From: Ignavibacteriota bacterium
GTDB lineage: Bacteria; Bacteroidota; Ignavibacteria; SZUA-365
DNA: 64,000 nucleotides
Assembly: GCA_016218045.1 (NCBI GenBank)
Contig: JACRFB010000004.1
Span: 1-64,000, forward strand
Direction of reading: 5' to 3'
The position numbers and the translations under genes were made by a program. Below are positions 45,344 to 47,759 of this stretch, piece by piece. The notes below the pieces were generated by a model. It saw only the letters and a list, made by a program, of their open reading frames with translations, was not told the origin of the DNA and made no database searches. The first letter of the stretch is position 1. Every line of letters starts with the position of its first letter.

Positions 45344-46087
45344 TCATATTTCGAAAAAAGCATGCGCCTCTTCCAGTCGGTCGGTGATGACGTAATCGAC
45401 AGCGCATGACCGTGCATGGGCGAAGGCGCGGATCGAATTGGCCGTAAACACGCCGCTGCCAATGCCATGTTCGGCGAGTCGACCTGCGAGCCGGCGCGAC
45501 ATGGTGAGGACATTCTGAAAATAGAACGTCGCTTGCACGTCCTGCAACTGCGATATCAGTGATGGACGAAAGACGGAGCGGTGCCCGAGAAGACCAAGAC
45601 GGACACGCATGTGATGGGCGCGGATGGTCTCGAGCACTGGCAGGGAAAACGACGTGATGATGGCGCTTCCAATCCGATCGTGGGTATCGATCAGGTCGAG
45701 CACGTCTCTGCAGAGCCGCCTACCGGTCGAGCCGCGTCCCGCGGATGGTTTGATCTCGATATCGAGTGTCACCTCGCGAGGAACGGTTGACAAGACGTCC
45801 TCGAGCCGCGGAACATGCTCCCCGCAGTATTCCTGCGAAAACCAGGACCCCGCATCGAGTGTGCGCACCGTGGCGTAATCCACCGCGGTAAGACGCGCCT
45901 TGAGTGCCGTGGTGCGCGCCAGGGATGTATCGTGCAGGACTACCGGCACGCCGTCGCGTGTGGCTTGCACGTCGAGTTCTATCCACGCAGCATGATGGGC
46001 GCACGCGAGGCGAAAGGCACTGAGCGTGTTTTCGGGTGCGCGCGCCGCGTATCCGCGATGCGCTATGATAACCGGCTGCGCGCTCAC
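45344..46087 (-). CDS. Glycerophosphodiester phosphodiesterase
   Basis: The 247-residue GDPD-fold protein has IIAHRGYAARAPENTLSAF (7-25) with catalytic His 10, Arg 11 and Glu 19, ELDVQATRDGVPVVLHD (37-53) with metal Glu/Asp and the second catalytic His 52, and DIEIKPS (about 108-114). It hydrolyses glycerophosphodiesters from phospholipid turnover to glycerol-3-phosphate. No signal peptide is seen, so it is cytoplasmic. Its start overlaps the end of fmt by 4 bases. Confidence 0.92.
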   Translation of the reverse strand: MSAQPVIIAHRGYAARAPENTLSAFRLACAHHAAWIELDVQATRDGVPVVLHDTSLARTTALKARLTAVDYATVRTLDAGSWFSQEYCGEHVPRLEDVLSTVPREVTLDIEIKPSAGRGSTGRRLCRDVLDLIDTHDRIGSAIITSFSLPVLETIRAHHMRVRLGLLGHRSVFRPSLISQLQDVQATFYFQNVLTMSRRLAGRLAEHGIGSGVFTANSIRAFAHARSCAVDYVITDRLEEAHAFFEI

Positions 46088-47148
46088 TGGAAGCGCGCGC
46101 CTTCCTCGAAGCTGAAGCCGCGCAGGAAGACGTCGGCCTCGAGCAGCTTGCGGCCTTCCTGCTTCAGTGCGAGGATCTCGAGATCACGATCGGCGCAGGA
46201 CACGTAAATGTGATGCTTGTCCGCCGTGACACAGCCGGGTTCCGCACGCTGTGCCGCATCAATGCGGGTCTGATACACTTTGATGGTTTCACCGTTGAGC
46301 GTGGTCCACGCCGCGGGATAGGGGCTCAGTCCCCGCACATGATTGTGTACGGACGCGGCATCACGCGCCCAATCGATGCGGCAGGTGTCGCGGAATATCT
46401 TTGGCGCCGGCGTCGCGAGCGTATCGCTTTGCGGGAGGGCTCGTGCGTCGCCACGCGCGATCATCTCCACGGTTTCAACAACTTCGGAGGCGCCGAGTAT
46501 CGCCAGCGCGTCATGCAATTGTCCCGCGTTGGTATCGGGTCCGATCGGGATTCTGCTCTGGCGCAGAATGGCGCCCGTATCCACTTTCTCCTGAAGGAAA
46601 AACGTGGTCACTCCCGTCTCGCTCTCGCCATTCATCAGAGCCCAATTGATGGGAGCTGCGCCGCGGTATAGGGGCAGAAGTGATGCGTGGAGATTGAAGG
46701 CGCCGAGTGGTGCGAGCGTGTAGACCGATGGGGGCAGTATGCGGAAGGCGACAACAACAATCACGTCGTGCGGAATCGAACTCAGCGCCGTGGCAAACGT
46801 GGGATCCTTGAGTGATTCTGGTTGAAGCACGGGCAACCCCGCAGCTTCGGCCACAACCTTGACAGGAGTAGGAGTCACTTTCTGGCCGCGTCCGCGCGCC
46901 TCGTCGGGCGCAGTCACCACAGCGGCTATCGTATGCCGCGAGGCCAGGAGGGCTTTCAACGAGGGCACCGCAAAGTCGGGGGTGCCCATGAAGATGAGGC
47001 GGAGCGCCGGAACTCCCCCTGCCCCCTCTTGAAAAGAGGGGGAACTCGCCTTTTGTATTTCCTCTGTCGGATTCAAGTCCAGATTCGACTCGAAATCTTG
47101 GGCGATGGCGGAGATGGTCTTCGATGACTCCTGCGCTTTGAAGGTCAT
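46084..47148 (-). CDS. fmt: Methionyl-tRNA formyltransferase with repeat-derived N-terminal extension
   Basis: The 354-residue protein contains a full Fmt: LIFMGTPDFAVPSL (51-64), the formyl-transfer core with FNLHASLLPLYRGAAPINWA (Asn/His/Asp active site about 153-172) and the C-terminal anticodon-arm domain. It formylates initiator Met-tRNA; tRNA-fMet and def are also in this window. The ATG at 47148 overlaps the def stop (ATGA). About 48 extra residues precede the normal first strand and include IQKASSPSFQEGAGG, encoded by a palindromic repeat. An original start nearer the catalytic domain appears to be lost. Confidence 0.92.
   Translation of the reverse strand: MTFKAQESSKTISAIAQDFESNLDLNPTEEIQKASSPSFQEGAGGVPALRLIFMGTPDFAVPSLKALLASRHTIAAVVTAPDEARGRGQKVTPTPVKVVAEAAGLPVLQPESLKDPTFATALSSIPHDVIVVVAFRILPPSVYTLAPLGAFNLHASLLPLYRGAAPINWALMNGESETGVTTFFLQEKVDTGAILRQSRIPIGPDTNAGQLHDALAILGASEVVETVEMIARGDARALPQSDTLATPAPKIFRDTCRIDWARDAASVHNHVRGLSPYPAAWTTLNGETIKVYQTRIDAAQRAEPGCVTADKHHIYVSCADRDLEILALKQEGRKLLEADVFLRGFSFEEGARFQ
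46999..47060. repeat. Palindromic repeat element inside the 5' end of fmt
   Basis: On the minus strand the segment reads CAAAAGGCGAGTTCCCCC, then CTCTTTTCAAGAGGGGG, then CAGGGGGAGTTCC. It forms a nearly perfect hairpin of CCCCCTCTT against AAGAGGGGG, with a second GTTCCCCC/GGGGGAGTTCC arm. Elements of this kind are usually intergenic in related genomes. Here it is read in frame. Its outer limits are not certain; the whole insertion could reach about 47140. Confidence 0.65.
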
Positions 47149-47759
47149 TCGATGATATCCTGCACGCGCAGGGATGCCAGGGGATAGTCGGCCTCGACAT
47201 CACCGCGCTTGATTTTACGCAGCGCGGGGATAACGAGGCGCTTGCGGAGTCCGCGCAAGCGGTCGGTAAAAAATATGCCCTGGAGGTGATCGTATTCGTG
47301 TTGAATGACACGCGCCAGCAGGCCGCCTGCTTCGAGTTCCATCTCCTCGAAATTCTCGTTTCGATAATGAATGAGGAGGCTTTCAGGCCGGATCACTTCG
47401 TCGCGCAGATTGGGCACGCTCAAGCATCCTTCCTCGAAGGCGATGTCGTCACCCGCAAATCCTTTTATCTCGGGATTGATGAAGACAAACGGCGTGCCGG
47501 GGAGCAGAGGTCCGTCCTCCGCCTCCTCGTTCTGTTCATCCTCTCCCTCCTCGTCCTCGTAGGGATTGCCGAGATCGATCACAAAAATCGAATGCCCCCT
47601 CCCCACCTGGTTCGCGGCGAGTCCGATACCGCGCGCCGCGCGCATCGTCTCGAACATGTCGCTGATCAGGCGTTGTATCTCTTCGTCCGGACGTTCGACG
47701 TCGCGGGTTTCCTCGCGCAGTACACGCGCATCGTAGGTATAAATCGGAAGTATGGCCAT
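47145..47759 (-). CDS. def: Peptide deformylase
   Basis: The 204-residue metalloenzyme has all three motifs: GIGLAANQVG (44-53), EGCLSVP (110-116, Cys 112 metal ligand) and HEYDH (154-158, His ligands and catalytic Glu). It removes the formyl group from nascent proteins. It has an acidic insert (about 66-84, Glu/Asp-rich) before the second strand, absent from most deformylases. It is the first gene of def-fmt-GDPD. Confidence 0.95.
   Translation of the reverse strand: MAILPIYTYDARVLREETRDVERPDEEIQRLISDMFETMRAARGIGLAANQVGRGHSIFVIDLGNPYEDEEGEDEQNEEAEDGPLLPGTPFVFINPEIKGFAGDDIAFEEGCLSVPNLRDEVIRPESLLIHYRNENFEEMELEAGGLLARVIQHEYDHLQGIFFTDRLRGLRKRLVIPALRKIKRGDVEADYPLASLRVQDIIE

Follow-up and report, generated by a model that had tools for sequence, protein, structure and literature searches.

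A palindromic intergenic repeat in frame between def and the Fmt core of an Ignavibacteria-like Bacteroidota genome, and its probable place in an N-terminal tail

Where does translation of methionyl-tRNA formyltransferase (Fmt) begin when a dispersed palindromic repeat lies in frame ahead of the first strand of the enzyme, and is that repeat part of the protein? The question is raised by a locus on the minus strand of contig JACRFB010000004.1, from a draft genome of 4.77 Mb that is 99% complete and assembled in 72 contigs. The window, the whole stretch of DNA that was analysed, covers the first 64,000 nucleotides of this contig. The features that matter to the argument are as follows.

47145..47759, minus strand: def, encoding a peptide deformylase of 204 aa, with a TGA that overlaps the ATG of fmt
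46084..47148, minus strand: fmt open reading frame (methionyl-tRNA formyltransferase), 354 aa; the sole full fmt found in the genome
47005..47148, minus strand: 48-codon N-terminal extension of Fmt, preceding the first strand LRLIFMGTPDF; absent in relatives
47056..47148, minus strand: codons 1-31, unique sequence whose codon use looks coding when read in the fmt frame
47074..47076, minus strand: TTG25, the other canonical in-frame start ahead of the core, with a weak Shine-Dalgarno sequence
47009..47054 (approximate ends), minus strand: REP-like repeat copy AAAAGGCGAGTTCCCCCTCTTTTCAAGAGGGGGCAGGGGGAGTTCC (minus-strand reading), codons ~32-46
47034..47042, plus-strand letters: palindrome arm AAGAGGGGG
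47022..47030, plus-strand letters: palindrome arm CCCCCTCTT
47013..47019, minus strand: GGGGGAG at the repeat edge, Shine-Dalgarno-like, predicted to be paired in the mRNA
47002..47004, minus strand: codon 49, CTC, where most relatives have their start Met in the alignment (MRLIFMG)

A reading of the sequence alone had proposed an ATG coupled to the def stop and about 48 extra residues before the first strand of Fmt, and both are confirmed by the open reading frame and the start of the family model. The fmt ATG at 47148-47146 overlaps the def stop (GAATGA), and the TIGR00460 fmt model matches the frame from residue 50 with 254.5 bits, above its membership cut-off of 201.5; with the family models for Fmt starting at residue 50, 48 residues stand ahead of the Fmt core. 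The frame carries PF00551 (Formyl_trans_N) and PF02911 (Formyl_trans_C). Set against TIGR00460 Fmt (structures 1FMT/2FMT), the core at residues 49-354 aligns over its full length and keeps the residues that are invariant in the family, N152, H154 and D190 among them, whereas the 48-residue extension is absent from the relatives examined. The def gene is the single Pep_deformylase match in the genome, and def and fmt are each single and intact. In an AlphaFold2 model of Fmt built on a 35-sequence alignment, residues 1-41 have pLDDT below 50, the first strand spans residues 50-55 and the core is confident (~97); the tail adds no confident structure to the model and leaves the predicted core undisturbed.

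The extension is peculiar to this genome among those compared. Searches for fmt covered 60 genomes drawn from its own family, order and class, and 80 fmt loci of named genomes, for the most part Bacteroidota and Ignavibacteria besides some Calditrichota and Zixibacteria; the region before the FMG motif was read by script in 25 relatives and about 64 named loci, two sets that partly overlap. No extension of this kind was found in nearly 90 readable N-termini. Most relatives' Fmt proteins begin M-[RK]-[IVL]-[IVL]-F; short leaders such as MAEETAESPKRRLRVLFMG occur in some (same-class examples at L028 and L032), and in some Bacteroidales the open frame runs on upstream of fmt so that the start is ambiguous. 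The comparison of N-termini that the sequence-only reading had called for thus found the extension absent, and the repeat absent at fmt too, with the palindrome at none of the 80 named loci. A search of 20 relatives with the 48-residue extension returned only its own locus and repeat copies of the same genome. Overlap or near-overlap of def and fmt is itself normal, being found also in relatives G009, G013, G015 and G018, and in 19 of the 21 relatives for which the script could place both genes, def is found immediately before fmt. Between the def stop and the FMG motif lie 8 to 87 nt in relatives versus 152 nt here, the exception being G003 with 159 nt, which has its own ATG adjoining the core.

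The palindrome, CCCCCTCTT-gaa-AAGAGGGGG at 47022-47042, is in frame as had been claimed; it encodes residues ~36-43 and so falls in the last third of the extension, not in its middle. Its pattern gave no match in 100 dinucleotide shuffles of the window. The suspicion that it belongs to a dispersed intergenic repeat was borne out: with up to 3 mismatches allowed, the genome holds 12 copies of ACTCCCCCTNCCCCCTCTTNNAAAGAGGGGG (the reversed control pattern gave none), and the other 11 lie between genes. The palindrome therefore recurs elsewhere in the genome, and no relative was found to conserve the extension without it. No copies were present in 394 other Bacteroidota genomes searched at up to 2 mismatches, nor in the plasmids and viral contigs searched, and an Rfam search over 46800-47400 gave no match; a looser form of the palindrome pattern matches 6 of the 60 relatives, with different loops.

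In an alignment on the fmt strand, the 12 copies have about 45 nt in common and then diverge, and the repeat ends were inferred from the points where they cease to agree. A purine-rich lead (AAAGGCGA-like or GGACAA) is followed by a hairpin and then by an edge, GGGGGAGTT, with GGGGGAG in every copy but L141, where it reads TGGGGAG. By a codon-score gene model, the fmt copy alone lies inside a coding-like frame; no coding-like frame found around the other 11 reaches into the copy, the nearest being separated from it by 58 to 444 nt, and four longer frames that overlap these copies contain no Pfam domain. An intrinsic terminator was considered and set aside, as by eye no T-run stands directly behind the stem on the fmt strand. 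Aside from the repeat itself, long CAGCGGGA(CA/GA)-type arrays adjoin the palindrome copies at L137 (G000:C48, ~1351-1530) and L006 (G000:C72, 1-140), which also have the flank CTCTCCCGCTGTCCCG in common, and low-complexity intergenic phrases such as CTACCATCTACCGTCTACC, TCCTGTCTCCTGCATCCTGCCTCC and ATCGTCTAATCGTCTGATCGT recur in the flanks of L004, L006, L007 and L045.

At fmt the repeat supplies about 15 of the 48 extra residues, roughly a third; the ~31 codons ahead of it are unique sequence. In the fmt frame, a codon model drawn from the other genes of the window gives codons 2-33 a score of 10.7 bits, where reference 32-codon windows score 8.8 ± 5.8 when coding and -11.5 ± 7.7 in the +1 frame. 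None of 396 stop-free shuffles reached this value, and 2.4% of open 96-mers in the gaps of this genome score as high; the codon use is suggestive, though not conclusive, of coding. The repeat itself gives no coding-like score. Openness of the frame alone proves little, since a 48-codon open frame is expected by chance at this base composition with a probability of about 19%. Read in the fmt frame, 8 of the 12 copies contain TAA (TCT TTT TAA), while the fmt copy and three other loop variants have CAA, so the non-readable majority form has been avoided at fmt, by chance or by selection. A translated tail would contain SSPSFQEGAGGV.

Which start codon is used decides whether that tail is made. 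Ahead of the core, ATG1 and TTG25 are the only canonical in-frame starts. No ATG, GTG or TTG stands between the repeat and the first strand: the codons after the repeat read CCG GCG CTC CGC CTC ATC TTC ATG, and this first ATG (M54) falls inside strand 1. The position of the relatives' Met is CTC here, and with no canonical start codon between the repeat and strand 1 the escape to a downstream start is closed for canonical starts. ATG1 has AGGA 9 nt upstream, with a predicted anti-Shine-Dalgarno pairing of -4.8 kcal/mol, in addition to its coupling to def; the equivalent value for TTG25 is -3.3 kcal/mol, and all such energies are for pairing with an assumed 16S tail.

We therefore consider it probable that a REP-like repeat inserted in frame between def and the Fmt core, and that synthesis of Fmt begins at the def-coupled ATG, leaving the enzyme with a disordered, tolerated tail. 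The argument draws on the repeat, its 11 intergenic sisters, its absence at relatives' fmt, the open frame and the lack of ATG, GTG or TTG before strand 1, and from these we infer translation from ATG1, read-through of 31 codons and the repeat, and retention of the tail. On this account a ~45-nt repeat, kept at low copy between genes of an Ignavibacteria-like Bacteroidota genome, would have landed in frame between def and the core; ribosomes would start at the def-overlapping ATG by termination-reinitiation, aided by the AGGA, and would pass through the unique 31-codon stretch and then the repeat, and the 48 residues would stay as a disordered N-terminal tail. Counting against it, the Shine-Dalgarno sequence before ATG1 is weak at -4.8 versus -9.8 kcal/mol for the stretch before CTC49.

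That stretch speaks for the likeliest of the alternatives, though one that we regard as unlikely: that the repeat and the preceding 31 codons are an untranslated leader, with an internal near-cognate start at CTC49 or ATC52 and GGGGGAG, 8 nt before CTC49, as its Shine-Dalgarno sequence. No other pairing at the locus is predicted to be as strong. However, the GGAG of the repeat edge is predicted to pair with GCUCC, no ATG, GTG or TTG occurs in any frame within 20 nt after GGGGGAG, and the upstream codons look coding. CTC, which departs from ATG at two positions, is moreover a poor start codon. An internal start would accord with PMC3733652, which warns that a palindrome annotated within an N-terminal coding region may in most cases be extragenic, the true start possibly lying downstream of it. 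It would also accord with AGAGGAAAT, just before the repeat, which bears a weak likeness to the ribosome sites ahead of fmt in G001 and G005; a test for a conserved fmt ribosome site just before the repeat gave shuffle fractions of 0.02-0.04 in 2 of the 11 comparisons, neither of which stayed significant once corrected, and the site was set aside. Two genomes of one genus in the same family (G010 and G011; L010, L018) carry GGAGTT, a likely fmt ribosome site, in the 30 nt upstream of the fmt ATG, at a spacing similar to that of GGGGGAG before CTC49. This is a further point for an internal start, although the identity of these letters with the repeat edge is probably a coincidence.

Somewhat less likely still is the absence of any functional long Fmt, either because a recent insertion has disabled the gene or because the assembly is faulty at this place. 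The fmt copy is near the family consensus and so may be young, and the assembly is a draft in 72 contigs. The sequence-only reading had called Fmt an essential enzyme, a description that does not hold for every bacterium: Fmt is described as important though not strictly essential in several bacteria (PMC3557171, PMC5680289), and as it is dispensable in some, an intact reading frame is no proof of expression. Against these points stand the full-length core with its invariant residues, the status of def and fmt as sole copies found, and a stop-free frame across the repeat that requires a minority loop variant. A start at TTG25, canonical and in frame, is very improbable given its weak Shine-Dalgarno sequence and an upstream stretch that belongs to the coding-looking segment, and would still include the repeat in an extension of 24 residues.

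If Fmt is made from the def-coupled ATG, the unique codons call for a history of their own. Codon use slightly favours codons 1-31 as an Fmt extension that would predate the insertion. Alternatively, a former spacer may have become coding on loss of the native start, with which AGAGGAAAT would weakly fit. A more specific version, which we put forward tentatively and would not back over its negation, is that the repeat landed at the fmt start and cut the gene off from its own initiation signals, whereupon reinitiation at the def-coupled ATGA rescued Fmt, and the old leader plus the repeat became a new 48-residue N-terminus.

Fmt thus probably bears a loose additional tail, part of which is encoded by a short, mobile-looking hairpin repeat, and, if so, a repeat-encoded peptide has been built into a housekeeping enzyme, the one that formylates initiator tRNA. 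The published survey (PMC3733652) treats most N-terminal palindromes as probable misannotation; the fmt copy is a clean counter-case, with canonical starts only upstream of the repeat and in a gene of the translation-initiation machinery. The event is ordinary in kind, since in-frame palindromic repeats are known both as Rickettsia palindromic elements (RPEs; PMC10969869) and, in several phyla, as REPs lying within genes (PMC3733652); it is a good test case, with an unusually clear start-codon argument.

The repeat is REP-like, a short palindrome in many intergenic places, with 11 of its 12 copies spanning no coding-like frame; its in-frame capture would work like that of RPEs or intragenic REPs, and we claim membership in neither family. 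Like the GTAG- or CGTC-tagged intragenic REPs (PMC3733652), it is a dispersed, short palindrome with a 9-bp stem and a small loop, chiefly intergenic, as those are, with occasional copies inside frames, including near the N-terminus. It differs in having 12 copies where REPs usually exceed 100 (PMC2817692), in having no transposase gene beside any copy and, from most N-terminal cases in the survey, in having no canonical downstream start. No GTAG or CGTC stands beside the stem in the 12-copy alignment, in which the tag variants TGTC and CCTC were also considered; GGACAA (reverse complement TTGTCC) ahead of the stem in 5 copies is a TGTC-like tag in the opposite orientation. A REPtron (REP with RAYT) was looked for and rejected, the genome having 4 Y1_Tnp matches over the cut-off and the palindrome occurring in none of five Y1 loci examined; mobilisation by one of these transposases is possible but unsupported. 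Two adjacent same-strand Y1_Tnp (IS200/IS605-like) matches lie at G000:C1:332229-333133 (L039, L041), with no palindrome nearby.

The sequence-only reading had likened the repeat to Rickettsia palindromic elements; a close kinship with them was not supported. RPEs are ~150 bp long, are inserted in many open reading frames and encode a conserved peptide (PMC10969869), whereas the repeat is ~45 nt, lies in a gene in 1 of 12 copies and has TAA in the fmt frame in 8 of 12; on length, genic share and stops it falls outside that family. What the two have in common is a palindromic repeat in frame within a housekeeping protein, here as an open frame, and in R. conorii proteins with an N-terminal RPE-1 are expressed (PMC3733652).
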